The translations under genes were made by a program, and so were the position numbers. This document shows, in pieces, positions 2,985 to 12,582 of a stretch of DNA of 64,000 nucleotides. Every line of letters starts with the position of its first letter. Position 1 is the first letter of the stretch. Origin of the DNA: Pleurocapsa sp. FMAR1 (lineage in GTDB: Bacteria > Cyanobacteriota > Cyanobacteriia > Cyanobacteriales > Xenococcaceae); the NCBI RefSeq assembly GCF_963665995.1, contig NZ_OY762512.1, forward strand, positions 4,092,001 through 4,156,000, in the 5' to 3' direction. Below the pieces are notes generated by a model. It was not told where the DNA came from. It did not search any database and worked only from the letters and a program-made list of their open reading frames with translations.

Positions 2985-4718
2985 ATGTTTAATGGTGAAG
3001 AGCAAGTGAAAATCAACAACAAAGATTTTTATTTCTGGTTGGGTGTAAGTTTATTATTCGCTCTTTATTACGGATTATTTTTTTACTATCAGGTATTTAG
3101 CCATGAATACATAGTTCAAGATGATGCCAGACATCATGTAGTTTGGCTACAAAAATTTATCGATCCAAAGCTATTTCCTAACGATCTAATTGCTGACTAT
3201 TTTCAAAGTCTTGCTCCTTTGGGATTTAAAGCACTATATTTTTTAATGGCAAAAATTGGCATTCAGCCAATTGTCTTGGCAAAAATATTGCCTCCAATAC
3301 TAGGTCTAATTACTACTGTTTATATCTATTTATTTAGTTTAGAAATATTACCTCTTGCCAGTTGTGCATTTTTAAGTAGCTTATTCGTCAATCAACTCAT
3401 TTGGCTAAATGACGATTTGGTTTCGGCAACACCTAGAGCTTTTCTTTATCCAATCTTGGCAGCATTTTTATATTATTTATCCAAAAAGGAGCTTGTTGCT
3501 TGTTTATTATTAATGCTATTGCAAGGCTTATTTTATCCTCAGTTATTATTAGTTGAAATAATAGTATTTAGTTTGAACTTGTTAATAGTAAAGGACAAGA
3601 TATTATTTAAATTTACTTCCCAAAAAGAACCCTATATTTGGTGGATATTGGGAGGAATAGTTACGGCGATCGCACTTTTTTCCCAGGTTCAAAAACCACC
3701 AGAACTAGCAATCCTTGTTACCGCCCAACAGATGCAGCAAATGCCAGAGTTTAATTCTGGTGGTAGAACTCCGTTTTTTGGTGGTGGTTGGTTTAATTAT
3801 TGGCTGGCTGGCGATAGTGGCTTAAGTTTGCCTCTTTTTCCGTCTGTAGTTTGGAGTGGGTTGGCATTACCTTTTTTACTTAAAACTAAACTGCCGATTA
3901 CCAAGTTAATTACCAAAAAAATCAGCATTTTAATTCAGGTTGCGATCGCATCTATTTTAATGTTTATCGCTGCCCATATTTTATTGCCAAAATTACATTT
4001 ACCAAACCGTTATACATATCATAGTCTGCGGTTGGTTATGGCAATTACCACGGCAATTGTCTTAACGATTTTAATCGATATAGCTAAAAATTGGTTGCTT
4101 AAAAAGCTTCAGTCGAAAACTTCTTTTAAGACTTCAGAAAAAATTAAAATTGCTGTAATTACTATTTTTAGCATCACAATAATTGTACTTCCTGCTATCC
4201 CTTATGTATTTACTAATTGGTGTCAAAATTGGAAAATAGGTACGGCAACGGAGATATATCAATATTTGGCAGGGCAGCCTAAAGATACTCTTGTTGCATC
4301 CTTAAGCAAAGATGCTGATAATATTCCTGCATTTTCCCAACGGTCAATTTTGATTGGAGGTGAATTTGCCTTTGCTTATCATCCTATCTATTATAATCAA
4401 TTTAAACAAAGAACAATTGATCTATTAGAGGCTCAATATAGTCCAAATCCAAAAGTTTTAAAATCTTTTATCCAAAAATATAAAGTAGATTATTTACTGT
4501 TAGATAATAATGCTTTTACAGCTAATTATTTATTAGACAAAAATTGGCTGGTTAATAGCAGTTGGTCGGCAAAAACAAACAAAAACATATCCCAATTAGA
4601 ATCCAATGTTTCTCCTGCTTTACTCAAATTTGTTTTATCTTGTTCAGTTAGATCTACAGGCAACTTAAATCTAGTAGATAGTAACTGTATTGTAAATAAT
4701 TCAAACAACGATGTTTAA
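2985..4718 (+). CDS. Polytopic membrane protein of unknown function, possibly GT-C glycosyltransferase-like
   Basis: A 577-residue protein with roughly ten to twelve hydrophobic segments spread over residues 15-410, followed by a largely soluble C-terminal part (about 420-577). The first non-membrane loop carries EYIVQDDARHHVVW (Asp46-Asp47). An acidic pair in this position is typical of GT-C glycosyltransferases and related membrane proteins, but no other family motif was recognised, so the assignment is only suggestive. Codon usage resembles the neighbouring genes. The stop codon overlaps the end of modBC on the other strand by 4 bases, so the two genes converge tail to tail. The start is the first ATG after an AT-rich leader. 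Confidence 0.75.
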   Translation: MFNGEEQVKINNKDFYFWLGVSLLFALYYGLFFYYQVFSHEYIVQDDARHHVVWLQKFIDPKLFPNDLIADYFQSLAPLGFKALYFLMAKIGIQPIVLAKILPPILGLITTVYIYLFSLEILPLASCAFLSSLFVNQLIWLNDDLVSATPRAFLYPILAAFLYYLSKKELVACLLLMLLQGLFYPQLLLVEIIVFSLNLLIVKDKILFKFTSQKEPYIWWILGGIVTAIALFSQVQKPPELAILVTAQQMQQMPEFNSGGRTPFFGGGWFNYWLAGDSGLSLPLFPSVVWSGLALPFLLKTKLPITKLITKKISILIQVAIASILMFIAAHILLPKLHLPNRYTYHSLRLVMAITTAIVLTILIDIAKNWLLKKLQSKTSFKTSEKIKIAVITIFSITIIVLPAIPYVFTNWCQNWKIGTATEIYQYLAGQPKDTLVASLSKDADNIPAFSQRSILIGGEFAFAYHPIYYNQFKQRTIDLLEAQYSPNPKVLKSFIQKYKVDYLLLDNNAFTANYLLDKNWLVNSSWSAKTNKNISQLESNVSPALLKFVLSCSVRSTGNLNLVDSNCIVNNSNNDV

Positions 4719-6550
4719 TTAGGTGCTTTAGCATCAAACATTATTATCTCAGGAGGAGACAGATGAATGTACCAAGGAAAAGCTAGCTTATTTAGTCTTT
4801 GCCACTCAAGCAGAGTTATTTCTGCTTCAAGCTGATAATCTTCTGCATTATTAATCGTGGAATGAAGTTTTAAGTACGCAATAACTTTGTTAGGAAATTC
4901 GCTATATTTAGTCAGCCATACGGGAAATATATTTATCCCTGACTCATTTTTGGTAAAGGTAATTACATGAGCATGAATCCCAATCTGGCTTAGGTTTTTA
5001 GGTATGGGATGCTCAACCTGTAGCTCACATTGCCAATCTATAGCTGCGATAATTTGAGATGATATTTTCTTGGCACGAGAAAAATTATTGCATCCTGTTA
5101 TTTGAGCCGTTTTGAGGTTAGGAGGATGATTGATAACATTTTGTTTTTGATTAAAAGCGATCGCCTTTCCGCGATCGATAATTAATAATTGCGGACAAAG
5201 ATAATAAGCCTCTGCCAGATTGTGAGTAACATACAGAGTTAAACCTGGATAATTAGTCAAACGCTTGCGGAGCAATTTAATTAATCTAGATTTTAAATTT
5301 GTGTCTAAAGCCGAAAATGGTTCATCCAGCAAGGTTACAGCAGGATTGCTAGCTAAAGCTCTGGCTAAGGCGATTCTTTGCTGTTCTCCTCCTGATAGCT
5401 GGGCGGGAAAGCGATCGTGTAATAAAGGTAAATTTACTTCTTGCAATTGCTTTGTTACTTCTTTTTTAATTACTGAAGTTGAGTGTGTAATAGACATCCC
5501 AAAAGCAATATTCTCAGCCACAGTAAGATGAGGGAAAAGAGCATAATCTTGAAATACTAAACCCACAGCGCGCTCTTGGGGTAGTAGGTTAATTTTTTTT
5601 GCTGAATCAAATAAAACTCTGTTATTAAGAACGATTATGCCTCTATCTGGGGTTTCTAAACCCGCAATACAGCGCAAAACAGTTGTTTTGCCTGCGCCAG
5701 AAGCTCCTAGTATACCTAACGGATTTTGCTGGCTATTAATTGTAAAAGCAATATCTAATAAAAAATCTGGTAGTTGTTTTTGAATATCTACTTCTAACTT
5801 TATCTCTTCTATTTGCTTACTTTCTCTAAAGGCTGTTTGCGAATAGCCTCTTTCTTTAGGAAAAAATATCCGTTTGCCCCGATCTACGTTACTTTGGTGT
5901 TCCCAATAATTAACTCCCATAATGACAACTAAAGAAATAAACAATAAAATAATTACCAACCATAAAGCCCGATCCATCGCCCCACTTTCGGCAACGAAAA
6001 AGATAGCGATAGGTATGGTTTGAGTTTTACCAGGAATACTCCCCGCTAACATCAAAGTTGCCCCAAATTCACCTAAAGCACGAGCAAAAGCCAATAAAGT
6101 TCCTGCAATCAGTCCAGGTTTAGCTAAAGGTAAAATGATTCGCCAGAAAATTGTGATTTCTGAAGCCCCTAAAGTTCTCGCACAGGCAATGAGATTACTA
6201 TTATTTTGCTGAAATGCTGCTAAAGCAGTCTTGTACATTAAGGGAAAAGCTACTACTGTGGCTGCAATGACGGTGGCATACCAGGTAAAAATTACTCGTA
6301 TGCCTACCAAATCTAGTAGTTGTCCTAAGAATCCATTTTTACCCAAAGCTAACAGCAGTAAAAATCCTACTACTGTTGGTGGCAATACCAAAGGTGCGGT
6401 AAAAATGCCATCTATTAAACCTTTACCTTTACCCTGATATCGACTCATCCACCACGCAGCCAAAACTCCCAAGCAGAAAGTAATTATCGTGGCGACTACT
6501 GCTGTTTTGAGAGATATCCAAACGGAAGCTAAAACACTGCTATTTAACAA
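4715..6550 (-). CDS. modBC: Fused molybdate ABC transporter permease and ATPase (ModB-ModC)
   Basis: A 611-residue fusion of two transporter subunits. Residues 1-217 are the ModB permease, with membrane segments and the ABC-coupling loop ACARTLGASEITIFW near residue 123. A linker leads to the ModC ATPase with Walker A GASGAGKTT (282-290), signature LSGGEQ (385-390) and Walker B TLLDEP (406-411). The last 140 residues form a C-terminal extension where ModC usually carries its molybdate-binding TOBE domain. With ModA it imports molybdate, driven by ATP. Fused modBC is known from cyanobacteria. modA ends 19 bases upstream, so the two are probably one operon. The high-identity ABC motifs make the call firm. 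Confidence 0.95.
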   Translation of the reverse strand: MLNSSVLASVWISLKTAVVATIITFCLGVLAAWWMSRYQGKGKGLIDGIFTAPLVLPPTVVGFLLLLALGKNGFLGQLLDLVGIRVIFTWYATVIAATVVAFPLMYKTALAAFQQNNSNLIACARTLGASEITIFWRIILPLAKPGLIAGTLLAFARALGEFGATLMLAGSIPGKTQTIPIAIFFVAESGAMDRALWLVIILLFISLVVIMGVNYWEHQSNVDRGKRIFFPKERGYSQTAFRESKQIEEIKLEVDIQKQLPDFLLDIAFTINSQQNPLGILGASGAGKTTVLRCIAGLETPDRGIIVLNNRVLFDSAKKINLLPQERAVGLVFQDYALFPHLTVAENIAFGMSITHSTSVIKKEVTKQLQEVNLPLLHDRFPAQLSGGEQQRIALARALASNPAVTLLDEPFSALDTNLKSRLIKLLRKRLTNYPGLTLYVTHNLAEAYYLCPQLLIIDRGKAIAFNQKQNVINHPPNLKTAQITGCNNFSRAKKISSQIIAAIDWQCELQVEHPIPKNLSQIGIHAHVITFTKNESGINIFPVWLTKYSEFPNKVIAYLKLHSTINNAEDYQLEAEITLLEWQRLNKLAFPWYIHLSPPEIIMFDAKAPN

Positions 6551-6569
6551 AAGATTTAATCGTACAAAT

Positions 6570-7433
6570 TCAGGTAAAGCAAAATGAAGTATCTTCAGTT
6601 GTTAATTGTTTATTATTAATTGACACAAAGCCATACTGTTTAAAAATAGCTTGAGCTTTGGGTGAGAAGAGGAACTGAAGCATCTGTTGAGCAGCTTGGG
6701 GATGATTGCTATCTTTAATTATGGCAACAGGATATATTATAGGACTATGGGTTTGTGGGAGTGCGATCGCAACAGTTTTGACTTGTTTAGAAGACTCTGC
6801 ATCGGTACGATAAACTATTCCTGCATCCACATTGCCCGTCTCCACATAACTTAAAACTTGACGTACATCTTTGCCATAAACACTTTTAAGTCTAACCGCA
6901 TCAATAATATTTAGGTTAGTTAATATTTCTTCAGCATATTGTCCCGCAGGAACACTTGTCGGTTCTCCTAAAGCGATTTGCTTAGTTGATTCTTTAGCTA
7001 AATCAGCAAAATCAACAATTGATTGATTGTCGAGCGGTACTATTAAAACCATTTGGTTTCTAACTAAATCTTGACGAGTTTTAGCAAGTAGCAGCTTTTT
7101 AGCCTCTAAATCATTCATTTGCTTTGGTGCAGCAGAAATAAAGATATCAATCGGCGCGCCTTGTTCTATTTGATTTTCCAAAGAACCAGAAGAACCAAAA
7201 TTAAGAGCTATCTTTACTTGAGGATGTTGTTGCGTATAAAGATCTTCAATATCAGTTAATACATCCTGCATACTAGCAGCAGCAGAGATAGTTAATTCTG
7301 TTGTTGCGGTTTTCTGTTTATCTACTGTCTGGCGATTGACGGTTTGAGTACAGCTACTAATTAAACTTAGAATTAAAAATTGAAAAGCGATAAATCTCTT
7401 AGGTATGTTTTTAATTCCTCTTGTCATGATCAA
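6570..7433 (-). CDS. modA: Molybdate-binding lipoprotein of the ABC transporter
   Basis: A 287-residue substrate-binding protein of the ModA family. The signal sequence ends in a lipobox (LISSC, Cys28), so the mature protein is predicted to be a lipid-anchored periplasmic receptor. Family hallmarks are TELTISAAASMQDVL after the linker, LNFGSSGSLENQIEQGAP (oxyanion-binding loop) and GNVDAGIVYRTDA. The C-terminus carries a short tail beyond the usual end (QLTTEDTSFCFT), which looks dispensable. It is the first gene of the modA-modBC pair. An SRP RNA gene on the same strand lies about 60 bases upstream. Confidence 0.94.
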   Translation of the reverse strand: MIMTRGIKNIPKRFIAFQFLILSLISSCTQTVNRQTVDKQKTATTELTISAAASMQDVLTDIEDLYTQQHPQVKIALNFGSSGSLENQIEQGAPIDIFISAAPKQMNDLEAKKLLLAKTRQDLVRNQMVLIVPLDNQSIVDFADLAKESTKQIALGEPTSVPAGQYAEEILTNLNIIDAVRLKSVYGKDVRQVLSYVETGNVDAGIVYRTDAESSKQVKTVAIALPQTHSPIIYPVAIIKDSNHPQAAQQMLQFLFSPKAQAIFKQYGFVSINNKQLTTEDTSFCFT

Positions 7434-7494
7434 TAAGAGTAATTCGGTTTCAACAACTGTAGTGAGTTAAATCCTAAAACGCATCTATAAAAAG

Positions 7495-7590
7495 TGATTC
7501 GGATATCACGCCTGTGTTAAGCATCCCTTATTGCTGCTGCCGTCAAGCTCTGACAAGGTTCGGGCGTTAATACTGCATGAGTCCGAATCA
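7495..7590 (-). ncRNA. ffs: Signal recognition particle RNA, small bacterial type
   Basis: Read on the minus strand, the ends pair (TGATTCGGA with TCCGAATCA) to close one long stem-loop of about 96 nt. The apical part contains CAGAGCTTGACGGCAGCAGC, which matches the conserved SRP-RNA domain IV core (CAG-Gxx-CCGGAAGGnAGCAGC pattern) bound by Ffh. This RNA forms the SRP that targets nascent membrane proteins. The core motif plus terminal pairing makes this a confident call although it has no ORF. Confidence 0.9.
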
Positions 7591-7596
7591 TAAACC

Positions 7597-7626
7597 AGCA
7601 TAACACAATCATTCGCCGATAACCAA
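7597..7626 (-). promoter_or_regulatory. Predicted sigma-70 promoter of the SRP RNA gene
   Basis: On the minus strand TTGGTT (7626-7621) and TATGCT (7602-7597) are separated by 18 bases. The start would fall about 6-7 bases further, at the first base of the terminal stem of the SRP RNA. The spacing and position fit; the -35 box is only a partial match. Confidence 0.5.
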
Positions 7627-7659
7627 GTAGATGCGTATTGTAACTGCACTTTACTTTAT

Positions 7660-9525
7660 CTAGCCTTTTAAAACCCTAGTAGCGTTGAGAATTGCCAACA
7701 GTGCTACGCCTACATCGGCAAACACGGCTGACCAAAGAGAGGCTATTCCAACTGCTCCTAGTAAAATAAACAAAGCTTTAATTGCCATTGCCAGGATGAT
7801 ATTCTGCCAGACAATAGAGTGAGTTTTACGAGCGATATTAATTGCTTCTGCCACTTTAGAAGGAGCATCGGTCATTAGCACCACATCGGCAGTTTCGATC
7901 GCTGCATCTGAACCTAATGCACCCATTGCTATACCTACATCGGCTCTGGCAATTACAGGTGCATCGTTAATTCCATCGCCGACAAAAGCCACTTTGCTTT
8001 TTTTGTCAGACTTACGAATATAATGCTCGATCGCCTCTACTTTATCTTCTGGTAGTAATTCGGCTTCGTAGGTATCTAAACCGAGTTTACTGGCAACATT
8101 CTTAGCCACAACTCGGTTATCTCCCGTTAGCATTACCGTTTGGGTGACTCCTGCTTTTTTGAGTCGGGCGATCGCTCTTGAAGCATCTTCTTTAATTCTG
8201 TCGGCGATTAAGATATAACCCGCATATTTTTTATCTATTGCTAAATGAACTACCGTACCTTCAACATTGCAGGTATCATGTTCTATATGTTCTCGGTGTA
8301 ACAGGCGATCGTTTCCTGCTAATACTGACTTTCCCTGAACTTTGGCTCGTATACCGTGTCCTGGGATTTCTTCGTAATCGGTAACATCAGAGTCAGCAAT
8401 TGCACCATCGTAAGCTTCAACAATCGATCGCGCTACAGGATGATTGGATTGAGATTCTGCTAAAGCTGCTAGGGTTAATAATTCCTTTTCGCTGTAGCCG
8501 TTATAGGGAGTTATCTGAGTAACTTGAAATACACCTTCGGTTAACGTTCCTGTTTTATCAAAAATAACCGTTTTGACATCGGTTAAAGTATCTAAGAAAG
8601 TCGAACCCTTAACTAAGATTCCTCTTTTTGCTGCACCGCCGACTCCACCGAAGTAACCCAAAGGAATACTAATCACTAATCCGCAGGGACAGGATATTAC
8701 TAATAAGACTAACGCCCGATAAACCCATAGTTCGCTAGATTCACCAGGAATTAATAAGGGCGGTAAGATGGCAACGGCTAAAGATAAGAAAACCACTACA
8801 GGAGTGTAATAACGAGCAAAGCGAGTAATAAATTGCTCGGTTGGGGCTTTTTTACTGCTAGCATTTTCCACCAAGTCCAAAATCTTAGCAATGGAAGATT
8901 CGGCAAATAGTTTAGTTACTCGAACGGTCAAACTACCTGTTTGGTTAATCGCACCTGCTAGGATCGTTTCTCCTTCTCTTACAGTTCGAGGTATAGACTC
9001 ACCCGTCAGTGCCGAAGTATCCACCTGGGAATTACCCGCTAATATCTCCCCGTCTAAAGGAACTTTCTCCCCTGGCTTGATAATGATAATATCCCCAACT
9101 TCTACTTTTTCTGGTGCAACCTCTCTAATTTCACCATCTAGCTTGAGATTCGCCGTGTCGGGGCGTACTTCTAACAATGACTTAATCGAACGTCGCGATC
9201 GCCCGACTGCAAACCCCTGAAACATTTCTCCTACCTGGAAAAACAGCATTACCGCCACGGCTTCAGGTATTTCATGAATGGCGATCGCACCTATGGTAGC
9301 AATAGTCATTAAGAAGTTTTCATCAAAGATTTGACCCCGCAAAATATTACGTCCCGCACTAGTTAAAACACTCCAGCCACTTATCAAATAGGCGGGAATT
9401 AGAACTGCGTATTCAGCGATCGCTCCAGGGGTATTATGCAAAGGCTGGTTAAAAATTAAGCCAACAAGAAATAAAACTATCGCAATACTTAAAGGAATAA
9501 GTTCAGAGCGTAGAGTCGGAATCAT
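7660..9525 (-). CDS. P1B-type heavy-metal-exporting ATPase (Zn/Cd/Co/Pb class)
   Basis: A 621-residue cation-transporting ATPase. Visible motifs are TGES (174-177, actuator), the membrane metal site CPC (279-281), the phosphorylated DKTGT (323-327), the HP dipeptide in SNHPVARS, and the hinge GDGINDAP. The CPC site and SmtB-type regulator next door point to export of zinc, cadmium or related divalent ions across the membrane. There is no N-terminal HMA domain; a Cys/His-rich leader normally fused to such proteins is instead encoded by a separate 27-codon frame whose stop overlaps this ATG (TAATG at 9527-9523). Translation is therefore probably coupled. Substrate is inferred, not proven. Confidence 0.93.
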   Translation of the reverse strand: MIPTLRSELIPLSIAIVLFLVGLIFNQPLHNTPGAIAEYAVLIPAYLISGWSVLTSAGRNILRGQIFDENFLMTIATIGAIAIHEIPEAVAVMLFFQVGEMFQGFAVGRSRRSIKSLLEVRPDTANLKLDGEIREVAPEKVEVGDIIIIKPGEKVPLDGEILAGNSQVDTSALTGESIPRTVREGETILAGAINQTGSLTVRVTKLFAESSIAKILDLVENASSKKAPTEQFITRFARYYTPVVVFLSLAVAILPPLLIPGESSELWVYRALVLLVISCPCGLVISIPLGYFGGVGGAAKRGILVKGSTFLDTLTDVKTVIFDKTGTLTEGVFQVTQITPYNGYSEKELLTLAALAESQSNHPVARSIVEAYDGAIADSDVTDYEEIPGHGIRAKVQGKSVLAGNDRLLHREHIEHDTCNVEGTVVHLAIDKKYAGYILIADRIKEDASRAIARLKKAGVTQTVMLTGDNRVVAKNVASKLGLDTYEAELLPEDKVEAIEHYIRKSDKKSKVAFVGDGINDAPVIARADVGIAMGALGSDAAIETADVVLMTDAPSKVAEAINIARKTHSIVWQNIILAMAIKALFILLGAVGIASLWSAVFADVGVALLAILNATRVLKG

Positions 9526-9608
9526 TATGAGCGTGGCTGATGGTCATGACCTTCATGTTTATGGCTTTCGACGGTAGAACAGCAGCCAGAAGAATGTTGA
9601 TTTGACAT
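9525..9608 (-). CDS. 27-residue Cys/His-rich mini-ORF overlapping the metal ATPase start
   Basis: ATG at 9608 opens a frame of 27 residues containing GCCSTVESHKHEGHDHQ, with two adjacent Cys and five His, and it ends with TAA at 9527-9525. That stop shares its last base with the ATPase ATG. Cyanobacterial relatives of this ATPase carry a similar Cys-Cys/His-rich leader as part of the same protein, so this may be a split-off leader (natural or by frameshift) or a free metal-binding peptide. The in-frame extension of the ATPase upstream of its ATG meets a TGA within ten codons, so the two frames cannot simply be joined. It sits between a SmtB-type operator and the ATPase. Confidence 0.6.
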   Translation of the reverse strand: MSNQHSSGCCSTVESHKHEGHDHQPRS

Positions 9609-9636
9609 TATCAAAGCAATTTGACAATTGAACAAT

Positions 9637-9650
9637 TGAATACTTGTTCA
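9637..9650. promoter_or_regulatory. SmtB/ZiaR-type operator in front of the mini-ORF and metal ATPase
   Basis: TGAATACTTGTTCA fits the ArsR/SmtB operator core TGAA-N6-TTCA and lies about 29 bases upstream of the mini-ORF start and just after the repressor gene. A second copy of the same pattern occurs upstream of the repressor. Binding by the neighbouring SmtB-like protein is inferred. Confidence 0.65.
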
Positions 9651-9696
9651 GATAATATCTCAAAAAAAGCAATTGAGCAATGAACGAAAGTCAGGA

Positions 9697-10092
9697 TTAA
9701 ACCTCGTCCAGATGCTCTGCTACTTCCCGATAAAGATTAGCAATATGCGCGTCTGCCAGACTGTAATAAACATTACGACCTTCACGGCGATGCTTAACTA
9801 AGCGGAGGTTTCGTAACAGACGTAACTGATGAGAGACAGCAGATTCACTCATCTTTACTACTGCTGCTAAGTCACAGACACAAAGTTCAGCTTTGAATAG
9901 TGCAGAAAGAAGTTTTAGCCGATGGGGGTCTGCCATTGCCCCAAAAAACTGAGCCATCTGTTGTGCTTTTTCTGTGGTTACGATTTGAGATTGCACTCGG
10001 CGTACTTGCTCTAAATGAACTAAAGAGGAATCACAAGTCGGTGCGTCGGATTCTGAGGAGGCTTGTTTTTTCGATTGGTCAACTTTACTCAT
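9697..10092 (-). CDS. SmtB/ZiaR-type zinc-responsive repressor (ArsR family)
   Basis: A 131-residue winged-helix repressor. Residues 42-105 form the DNA-binding domain (FFGAMADPHRLKLLSAL; SESAVSHQLRLLRNLRLVKHRREG). Both metal-site types of the family are present: a Cys-x-Cys at 71-73 (ELCVCDLA, alpha3N) with an N-terminal Cys20, and the alpha5 site Asp114-x-His116 ... His127-x-x-Glu130, whose spacing exactly matches the zinc ligands of SmtB. Metal binding is expected to release it from TGAA-N6-TTCA operators, which flank it on both sides. It is co-directional with and upstream of the ATPase rather than divergent from it, the more usual arrangement for smtB and ziaR. Confidence 0.93.
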   Translation of the reverse strand: MSKVDQSKKQASSESDAPTCDSSLVHLEQVRRVQSQIVTTEKAQQMAQFFGAMADPHRLKLLSALFKAELCVCDLAAVVKMSESAVSHQLRLLRNLRLVKHRREGRNVYYSLADAHIANLYREVAEHLDEV

Positions 10093-10170
10093 TTTTTAGA
10101 CTCTAAAACTTATTAGTCTAGTTATGCAGACAATAATACTGAGTTAATACAGCTTTAAACTAGCTTATAT

Positions 10171-10189
10171 GATAATGATACTCATTATT
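10171..10189. promoter_or_regulatory. Fur-box-like palindrome upstream of the SmtB-like repressor
   Basis: The 19 bases GATAATGATACTCATTATT differ at two positions from the classical Fur box GATAATGATAATCATTATC. It lies about 80 bases upstream of the repressor start and 5 bases from a SmtB-type operator. A Fur-family regulator (Fur or Zur) is the likely binder; which one cannot be told from sequence. Confidence 0.55.
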
Positions 10190-10193
10190 TTGC

Positions 10194-10209
10194 CTGAATG
10201 TCTATTCAG
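10194..10209. promoter_or_regulatory. Second SmtB/ZiaR-type operator, upstream of the repressor gene
   Basis: CTGAATGTCTATTCAG is an inverted repeat matching TGAA-N6-TTCA with an extra C/G pair on the outside. It is about 100 bases upstream of the repressor ATG and suggests autoregulation. It shares the pattern of the site at 9637-9650. Confidence 0.6.
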
Positions 10210-10344
10210 ATGAACAAATACACTTATCAATCGTTTCTATTTATTTACGGAGTTGGTAAATGCGTAATGCTAAACTCATATTTTACTTATCAACCAAAAA
10301 CATACAATTTTTTAAAAGCTACTAGCTACGAACAGTACTATATT

Positions 10345-10523
10345 GTAAGTCATTACTGTCTTGAACGAGTCGCTTATGGGGGAAACCCCCACCGCGAGAG
10401 TGGAATAGCGCTTGGGTCTGTTGCGGGGGTTCCCCCCGTTGAAGAACTGAACCAAGACAGCCCTTTAATTCAGGGCATTTCCGTGCAGCAAAGACCGCGC
10501 TCGTTCGCTAAATCATCAACGCC
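10345..10523 (-). repeat. Long copy of the MITE-like element, GC-rich
   Basis: Read on the minus strand it begins GGCGTTGATGATTTAGCGAA, ends with TCAAGACAGTAATGACTTA, and contains GCGGTGGGGGTTTC. These blocks also form the short element at 2851-2926. The extra internal part carries a GC-rich segment (about 10422-10442) that recurs, reverse-complemented and identical over 20 or more bases, at 29942-29965. The composition is clearly unlike the surrounding AT-rich DNA. Confidence 0.65.
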
Positions 10524-10534
10524 TTTTAAAATAA

Positions 10535-10801
10535 ATGCACTTAATTCTCTACAGCAAACCAGGCTGCCATCTTTGTGAAGGTTTGCAGTCAAAACTGGCA
10601 CAGGTAAGCAACGTTGATTTTGAGTTAGAAATTCGCGATATCAATACTAATGAGAACTGGTTTGCTGCTTATCAGTATGAAATTCCAGTACTCTGTCAAA
10701 AGTTACCTGAAGCAGAAAAAACATTGCCTCGTTTGTCTCCTCGTGCTTCGGTGGCCAAACTAGAGCAAATGTTACAGAAAAATTTAACAATCTTAGGTTA
10801 A
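10535..10801 (+). CDS. Glutaredoxin-like protein (DUF836 family)
   Basis: An 88-residue thioredoxin-fold protein. It opens with a beta strand and a redox-type motif, LILYSKPGCHLCEGL (Cys-His-Leu-Cys at residues 10-13), then IRDINTNENW and the cis-proline turn EIPVLC, the standard order of a glutaredoxin-like domain. A role in thiol-disulfide chemistry in the cytoplasm follows from the family; the substrate is unknown. The gene starts immediately after a MITE-like repeat, so its promoter may lie inside or beyond the repeat. murE begins 48 bases downstream on the same strand. Confidence 0.85.
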   Translation: MHLILYSKPGCHLCEGLQSKLAQVSNVDFELEIRDINTNENWFAAYQYEIPVLCQKLPEAEKTLPRLSPRASVAKLEQMLQKNLTILG

Positions 10802-10849
10802 AAAAGTGTCCAAAATGTAGTAGAAACTTTTGTTTACTCAAAAAGAAAT

Positions 10850-12331
10850 ATGATGAAGCTGCGGGAACTATTAGCGAAGGTAAATCTTCAGCAACCAGAA
10901 CATTCTGCTTTAGATTTGGAAGTCAATCGAGTTTGTACTAATTCTCATGCGTGCAAACAGGGAGATTTATTTATTGGGATGCCAGGAACAAGAGTTGATG
11001 GCGGAGAATTTTGGCGTAGTGCCTTGGGGCAAGGTGCGATCGCAGCAGTGGTAACTCCTAGTGCAGCGGATAAACAGCCTCCCACCGCCGATGCCTGTGT
11101 GATTCAAACTGAGGATATGATTGCTACCTGTAGTGCGATCGCCGCAGCTTTTTATGATTATCCTACCCACAAGCTTAAAACCATTGGCGTAACTGGCACA
11201 AACGGTAAAACTACTACCAGTCATTTAATTGAATATTTCTTACTTCAGGCGCAACAGCCGACAGCTTTACTAGGTACTCTCTATACCCGTTGGCAGGGAT
11301 ATAGCCAAACTGCTATCCATACTACGCCTTTTTCTGTAGAATTACAGTCTCAGCTAGCAGAAGCGGTAAAGGCGGGAAATAAATACGCCGTAATGGAAGT
11401 TAGTTCCCATGCCTTAGCTCAAGGTAGAGTTAAAGCCTGTAGTTTTGAAGTGGGAGTCTTTACTAACCTAACTCAAGATCACCTTGACTATCACAAGGAT
11501 ATGGAAGACTATTTTCAGGCGAAGTCTTCGCTCTTTACTCCCGAATATCTCAAAGGTAAAGCCATTATTAACCTAGATGATGCTTATGGTAAGCGTTTAA
11601 TTAATCGGCTTGATAGCAGCAAGGTTTGGACTTATAGCGTAAACGATCGGGCTGCGGATTTATATACCAGTAATTTAGATTATCAACCCACGGGAGTTAG
11701 AGGTACTTTGCATACTCCCGTAGGCGAGATGGCTTTTAATTCTCCTTTGGTTGGTCAATTTAACTTAGCTAATCTCTTGGCAGCAGTGGGAACAGCCTTG
11801 TATTTAGATGTAGAATTACAAGTCCTGATAGATTGCTTACCTCAGTTTGCAGGCGTACCTGGCAGAATGGAACGAGTCCAGCTTACTCCTGAACAAGATA
11901 TTAGTGTTATCGTCGATTATGCCCACACTCCTGACAGTTTAGAAAACTTGCTCAAGGCTGCCCGTCCCTTTATTAGTGGGAAAATGATCTGTGTCTTTGG
12001 CTGTGGTGGCGATCGCGATCGCACTAAACGTCCCTTGATGGGTAAAATTGTCGCCGAACTAGCAGACGTGGCGGTGGTTACATCAGATAACCCCCGTACC
12101 GAAAACCCCGAACAGATTCTCAAAGATATAGTAGCAGGGATTCCTCTAACGATTGAACCAATGGTTATTAGCGATCGCGCCCAGGCGATCGCCACTGCCA
12201 TCAAGCAAGCACAGTCAGGAGATGGGGTACTGATCGCTGGCAAGGGACATGAAGACTATCAAATTTTAGGTACAGAGAAAATTCATTTTGACGATCGCGA
12301 ACAGGCAAGAGTTGCTTTGGGCGATCGTTAA
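10850..12331 (+). CDS. murE: UDP-MurNAc-L-Ala-D-Glu:meso-diaminopimelate ligase
   Basis: A 493-residue Mur ligase that adds meso-diaminopimelate to the peptidoglycan precursor in the cytoplasm. The N-terminal UDP-binding domain is followed by the ATP loop GVTGTNGKTTTSH (about 119-131), the central-domain segment VMEVSSHALAQGR, and the C-terminal DNPRTENPEQI (the DNPR motif selecting diaminopimelate over lysine). The length is typical. Two ATG codons stand in tandem at 10850 and 10853; either may serve. It follows the glutaredoxin-like gene on the same strand. Confidence 0.97.
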   Translation: MMKLRELLAKVNLQQPEHSALDLEVNRVCTNSHACKQGDLFIGMPGTRVDGGEFWRSALGQGAIAAVVTPSAADKQPPTADACVIQTEDMIATCSAIAAAFYDYPTHKLKTIGVTGTNGKTTTSHLIEYFLLQAQQPTALLGTLYTRWQGYSQTAIHTTPFSVELQSQLAEAVKAGNKYAVMEVSSHALAQGRVKACSFEVGVFTNLTQDHLDYHKDMEDYFQAKSSLFTPEYLKGKAIINLDDAYGKRLINRLDSSKVWTYSVNDRAADLYTSNLDYQPTGVRGTLHTPVGEMAFNSPLVGQFNLANLLAAVGTALYLDVELQVLIDCLPQFAGVPGRMERVQLTPEQDISVIVDYAHTPDSLENLLKAARPFISGKMICVFGCGGDRDRTKRPLMGKIVAELADVAVVTSDNPRTENPEQILKDIVAGIPLTIEPMVISDRAQAIATAIKQAQSGDGVLIAGKGHEDYQILGTEKIHFDDREQARVALGDR

Positions 12332-12338
12332 ACTTTAA

Positions 12339-12376
12339 AAAAGCGTTGTATTATTGCCAAAATAAGCAACGCTTTA
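12339..12376 (+). terminator. Stem-loop after murE
   Basis: AAAGCGTTG (12340-12348) pairs with CAACGCTTT (12367-12375) around an 18-base loop, 8 bases after the murE stop. There is no long T-run on the plus strand, so termination efficiency is uncertain. The adjoining GCATTCACCAACGCC (12378-12392) resembles the right end of the IS1-like element at 18195-18210. Confidence 0.45.
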
Positions 12377-12461
12377 CGCATTCACCAACGCCAGTAATTT
12401 TATGGCGGGACGAGAGTGATACTAAATTCTGTTCGGATAGAACACTTTAAGGTTAGGTAGA

Positions 12462-12493
12462 TCAGAGGTCAGAAGTCAGAGGTCAGAGGTCAG
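12462..12493. repeat. Heptamer tandem repeat (TCAGAGG, 4.5 units)
   Basis: Four and a half copies of a 7-base unit (TCAGAGG, with one TCAGAAG) lie between murE and folC. Short tandem heptamers of this kind are common in intergenic DNA of filamentous and other repeat-rich cyanobacteria. Confidence 0.75.
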
Positions 12494-12582
12494 TAAATTG
12501 ATCACTACCTTTATCAATCGGATTTAGTTTAAGTTTAATAATCATTAAAGTTCAGGTTTCCAGTTTGGCTTATGATAATTGA

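Follow-up and report, generated by a model that had tools for sequence, protein, structure and literature searches.

Genes and features at the locus

The window, i.e., the whole 64,000-nucleotide stretch of the Pleurocapsa sp. FMAR1 genome that was analyzed, harbors on its reverse strand a gene for a metal-exporting ATPase, preceded by a very short ORF and by the gene for a metalloregulator. The features considered below are as follows.

7660–9525, minus strand: metal-exporting P1B-type ATPase of the Zn/Cd family, ZiaA-like, 621 aa, with an intact core (profiles, dN/dS)
9513–9541, minus strand: stretch in which the window is longer by one base at each of two sites, about 25 nt apart (DNA alignment, gap in 18 of 18 relative rows)
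9523–9527, minus strand: TAATG, the leader stop sharing one base with the ATPase start (sequence)
9525–9608, minus strand: leader ORF of 27 codons, the detached N-terminal Cys/His leader of the ATPase, homologous to the fused leaders of relatives
9637–9650, minus strand: TGAA-N6-TTCA, a repeat resembling an ArsR/SmtB-type operator, located 5′ to the leader ATG
9697–10092, minus strand: SmtB/ZiaR-like ArsR-family metalloregulator, 131 aa (NF033788, 99.1 bits, cut-off 55; PF01022)
10195–10208, minus strand: a further operator-like TGAA-N6-TTCA repeat, located 5′ to the regulator gene

The ATPase scores 566.7 bits against TIGR01512 (curated cut-off 313.5) and 591.9 bits against TIGR01525 (cut-off 346.25), contains the Pfam domains E1-E2_ATPase and Hydrolase, and carries SCPCGL and DKTGTLT in its translation, of which CPC and DKTGT are the metal-site and phosphorylation motifs, respectively. 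Its core is intact, constrained, and without decay: dN/dS of the core is 0.061–0.105 between the window and six relatives and 0.064–0.099 for the 15 pairs among those relatives, each pairwise value being a mean over both lineages that cannot isolate the constraint since the split of the leader. The genome, a single contig of 5,429,540 bases with 99.88% completeness, yields only one close copy of this ATPase, and the remaining ATPase matches are 33–43% identical. Further downstream, a bacterial small SRP RNA is located at 7493–7589 on the minus strand, between the ATPase gene and a modA-like gene (RF00169, 50.2 bits; gathering 40), and the region 4715–7433 on the same strand encodes a modA-like binding protein and then one ORF joining a ModB-like permease and a ModC-like ATPase, as judged by eye from the translation.

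The regulator gene is located upstream of the ATPase gene on the same strand; ziaR likewise adjoins ziaA in Chondrocystis NIES-4102. This organization resembles ZiaA/ZiaR of Synechocystis and AztA/AztR of Anabaena, pairs of a zinc-responsive ArsR/SmtB repressor and a P1B zinc ATPase, in that a regulator stands beside a Zn/Cd-family P1B ATPase with an operator-like repeat between them, and differs from both in that the Cys/His leader is found in a separate frame. Synechocystis ZiaA has an HMA domain. The orientation is also different: Synechocystis ziaR is described as divergently transcribed in a passage of the source (PMC8790569), whereas the regulator and the ATPase of the window are read in the same direction. 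According to a further passage there, SmtB/ArsR regulators bind 12-2-12 inverted repeats (PMC8790569). The 15-base form of the repeat, CTGAA-N6-TTCA, has three matches with one site counted on both strands, while 0.9 are expected and 6 of 100 shuffles reach three. Among the 41 rows of relatives described below, TGAA-N6-TTCA is found within 420 nt upstream in 31 and is missing from 10. Apart from these repeats, an intergenic G-run/C-run palindromic sequence can be seen by eye at 10340–10480, upstream of the regulator gene.

The leader ORF and its counterparts in relatives

An earlier note on this DNA, made from the sequence alone, had described a 27-residue ORF on the minus strand, from ATG at 9608 to TAA at 9525, with a Cys-Cys pair and five His, whose stop overlaps the ATPase ATG in TAATG. 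The translation agrees with this description, and the sequence confirms that one base is shared. Small ORFs are common here, with 67 ORFs of at least 20 aa overlapping 6000–12500; at least two Cys together with at least five His are found in 8 of the 4982 ATG-started ORFs of 20–60 aa in 1.256 Mb of the genome, the leader ORF counted. The similarity of the peptide to the best 12 of 32 leaders of relatives amounts to 6.8–12.7 SD over 200 self-shuffles, which indicates that the ORF is derived from a coding sequence and did not arise by chance. A profile search with the peptide gave no match at E values up to 0.1 in Pfam and up to 0.001 in NCBIfam.

Homologues were gathered from the best 80 of 206 confirmed contig matches and from 60 genomes (the own genome included; 23 matching at 1e-200). 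Leaders were read as in-frame extensions upstream from the ATPase core in relatives of at least 63% identity, giving 41 rows, or 32 distinct sequences after removal of 9 duplicates. An in-frame leader of at least 20 residues is found in all of the 41 rows and all of the 32 distinct sequences. At least two Cys are present in 30 of the 32, at least three His in 30, both in 28, and an adjacent Cys pair in 23. One leader (L088) apparently starts with GTG, and another (L104) is long and, as judged by eye, contains an HMA-like motif. In the ZiaA-type ATPases of Xenococcus PCC 7305, Waterburya, Pleurocapsa, Hyella, and others, the homologous leader occupies the same position before the same core; it is in frame with the ATPase in every distinct relative read, while that of the window is split off. 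The statement of the earlier note that related cyanobacterial ATPases carry the leader fused at their N-terminus thus holds. In contrast to these near relatives, the window ATPase has no in-frame leader, the leader sitting in another frame: 5′ to ATG 9525 its own frame offers just six open codons and no Met, and the next ATG, GTG, or TTG in this frame after ATG 9525 is a TTG at codon 29, in what appears by eye to be the first membrane segment. A fused N-terminal leader is a trait of near relatives and does not define the whole TIGR01512/ZiaA-like family. The note had further raised conservation of the Cys/His peptide with its TAATG junction as a separate frame; the split arrangement is seen in 0 of the 32 distinct relatives read.

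A survey of 388 genomes of the order, 127 of which matched, gives 133 match rows. Of these, 125 are full length and 8 are excluded from this tally since they start after query residue 13 or end before residue 616. The open frame of the window is the shortest at 627 aa, the next being 636 aa, so that the other 124 full-length matches all reach 636 aa or more. This survey concerns open-frame length only, so that a Cys/His leader is not implied where the leader itself was left unread, as in most of them. In five genomes of the same genus that have no match at 1e-200 (G001, G003, G005, G009, and G012), a search at 1e-30 does not recover a complete close copy; what it finds are less similar ATPases of 32–39% identity and, in G003, a fragment. 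The fragment (L250, 2953–3240) is an approximately 90-residue stretch of the ATPase with 83–84% identity near a different ATPase, probably a remnant. The region 9500–9720 is matched in 13 of 30 genomes (own and 29 related ones) and at a single place in the own genome, a search that gives places only, fusion being read separately from the frames. The best-scoring relative genome is G008. As for plasmid records, ATPase annotation lies under the match in 24 of the 25 matches listed, out of 1476, and is lacking under one. The best named match is plasmid1 of Chondrocystis sp. NIES-4102 with 91% identity, annotated as ziaR_1-ziaA_1. Of the distant loci, 39 have a match that begins no later than query residue 12, and in three of these the part preceding the core is almost devoid of Cys and His, suggesting that the leader may be dispensable; all of the three are from metagenome-assembled genomes with uncertain starts.

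Two one-base gains: mutation or error

Compared with 18 of 18 aligned relative rows, the window has gained one base at each of two sites about 25 nt apart. In this alignment the first site is opposite longer gaps in some rows, three of the rows appear identical, and the exact gap placement is that of the aligner. The joint effect of the gains is that the leader frame is closed at TAA and that an ATG within the leader codons now lies in the pump frame. The earlier note had also considered that a frameshift split the leader off, and this is borne out by the two gains and by the in-frame leaders of the relatives. The downstream gain alone would give the pump an in-frame ATG and the upstream gain alone would not; judging from this, the downstream gain probably came first, or both occurred at once. 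Programmed ribosomal frameshifting was also considered and rejected: the relatives are plainly in frame, and the short overlap contains no slippery heptamer by eye. A narrow literature search found no report of split metal-ATPase leaders, which is no proof of absence from print.

The sequence between the two gain sites can still be read as leader, now in the third frame, and has hardly decayed, so that the event is either recent or an error. If it were an error of sequencing or assembly, the leader would be fused in the living organism as it is in the relatives. This would agree with the readable third frame and with a core showing no decay, as well as with the fact that the split arrangement occurs in no other genome examined, and a locally bad stretch of sequence might account for two errors together. 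However, the compared part of the assembly is poor in frameshifts. When 0.8 Mb of G008 was compared with 1.256 Mb of the own genome, a frameshift was found in 1 of 94 comparable genes (29,183 aligned residues); seven further matches hold stops, six of them ahead of the first Met in the query and one some eight residues before the query end. In the reverse direction, the count is 1 of 90, and seven matches hold stops. The detector recovered 65 of 94 planted one-base insertions and missed 29, mostly near gene ends, so that 1 of 94 is a lower bound; it does not flag the leader/ATPase locus itself. Nor are the gain sites in long single-base runs; the genome is one contig and, as noted above, nearly complete; and two independent errors 25 nt apart are improbable at the rate of 1 in 94. 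The assembly is thus not generally ridden with frameshifts, and because they are rare in its compared part a true mutation is clearly favored over an error, which we regard as unlikely.

The one frameshifted gene is that of an SNF2-type helicase, with a two-base difference from G008 at a GCGATCGC site (L184 at about 16906; G000:C1 near 3716906), which we take to be a HIP1 site. The best NCBIfam match of this helicase is DISARM DrmD, under its cut-off.

Fates of the leader and the pump

The detached leader might now be a functional free peptide that is made together with the pump and either hands over zinc or cadmium to it or buffers metal, in the manner of PacL1 and CtpC. The peptide retains the Cys pair and five His, its TAATG junction would couple it to the pump, and there is a precedent for a P1B pump whose gene is accompanied by that of a small, separate metal-binding partner: mycobacterial PacL1, a small metal-ligand-rich ORF product encoded beside the zinc P1B ATPase CtpC, is described as assisting CtpC (PMC9374683). 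The likeness to the window goes no further. PacL1 has 93 residues and a membrane segment and belongs to the DUF1490 proteins, a family described as restricted to Actinobacteria (PMC9374683), whereas the peptide of the window has 27 residues, a different origin, no hydrophobic, membrane-like stretch by eye, and no sign of conservation as a separate gene. Furthermore, it is without the last part of the leaders of relatives and, as mentioned, matches no Pfam or NCBIfam profile; none of the 32 relatives read has it as a separate frame, and the open-frame lengths across the order give no hint of one. The metal-delivering peptide suggested in the earlier note thus finds no positive support or conservation among the genomes examined, and a function of this kind is improbable. 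A slightly bolder version, in which both gains are real and selected and the leader has been shortened to stop precisely at an internal ATG and so become a free, co-translated Cys/His peptide acting on the pump in trans, i.e., a metallochaperone born by gene fission, is a shade less probable again.

The other role suggested in the earlier note is that of a metal-sensing leader peptide, which would control translation or transcription of the ATPase by attenuation. A short ORF rich in Cys and His codons directly 5′ to the pump gene and overlapping its start would be suited to this. Against it, the RNA does not exceed shuffled sequences in structure (z 0.31, 0.73, and –1.10), no terminator-like site is found in 9400–10350, the SRP RNA is the sole Rfam match in 7300–10600, and the neighboring ArsR/SmtB-type gene and the operator-like repeats already point to metal control. 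The same codons belong to the pump in the relatives. The metal-sensing peptide, too, finds no positive support or conservation among the genomes examined, and such a role is highly improbable. The 27-residue ORF is not a new gene, and it reflects a local peculiarity of a pump gene that is otherwise ordinary, not a peptide of a new type.

Probably, this is a ZiaA-type pump gene whose leader has been detached by two gains and whose product is a leaderless working pump. The split in this assembly, the ancestry of the Cys/His leader as a fused, in-frame part of the pump, and the intact, constrained core are shown. Two one-base gains about 25 nt apart would have closed the leader with TAA and joined the hidden ATG to the pump frame. 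Leader and pump probably share one mRNA, controlled by the ArsR/SmtB-type regulator through the operator-like site just 5′ to the leader; on this mRNA, a ribosome would read the leader frame, stop, and restart at the overlapping ATG 9525, and its product would be a pump that lacks the leader and is nevertheless working. The free leader is most likely a by-product, at most kept as a frame that delivers ribosomes to the pump start.

Translational coupling of the leader and the ATPase is plausible from the geometry of TAATG, the kind of stop/start overlap found in termination-reinitiation pairs. According to a study of such pairs, the class of one-base overlaps, to which TAATG belongs, ranks second in frequency among the overlaps of prokaryotes, reinitiation drops sharply with distance, and the final 15 nt of the upstream gene are enough for it in one pair of E. 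coli genes (PMC10666635). The window shares TAATG with the one-base-overlap pairs treated there (PMC10666635) and differs from them in that its pair arose by splitting one gene. No Shine-Dalgarno-like motif is seen by eye near ATG 9525. In cyanobacteria, as part of another source has it, Shine-Dalgarno motifs are rare at new starts and ample for reinitiation at overlapping pairs (about 40%), and overlapping pairs themselves make up <10% (PMC6728339). Taken with this usage, the lack of a motif near ATG 9525 speaks against efficient coupling.

If the split is real, it illustrates how a metal-binding extension fused to a pump can disappear or be set free without loss of the pump, which an ATG concealed among the leader codons keeps alive. 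A warning also follows: Cys/His-rich micro-ORFs near metal pumps can be frameshifted leaders, not new peptides.
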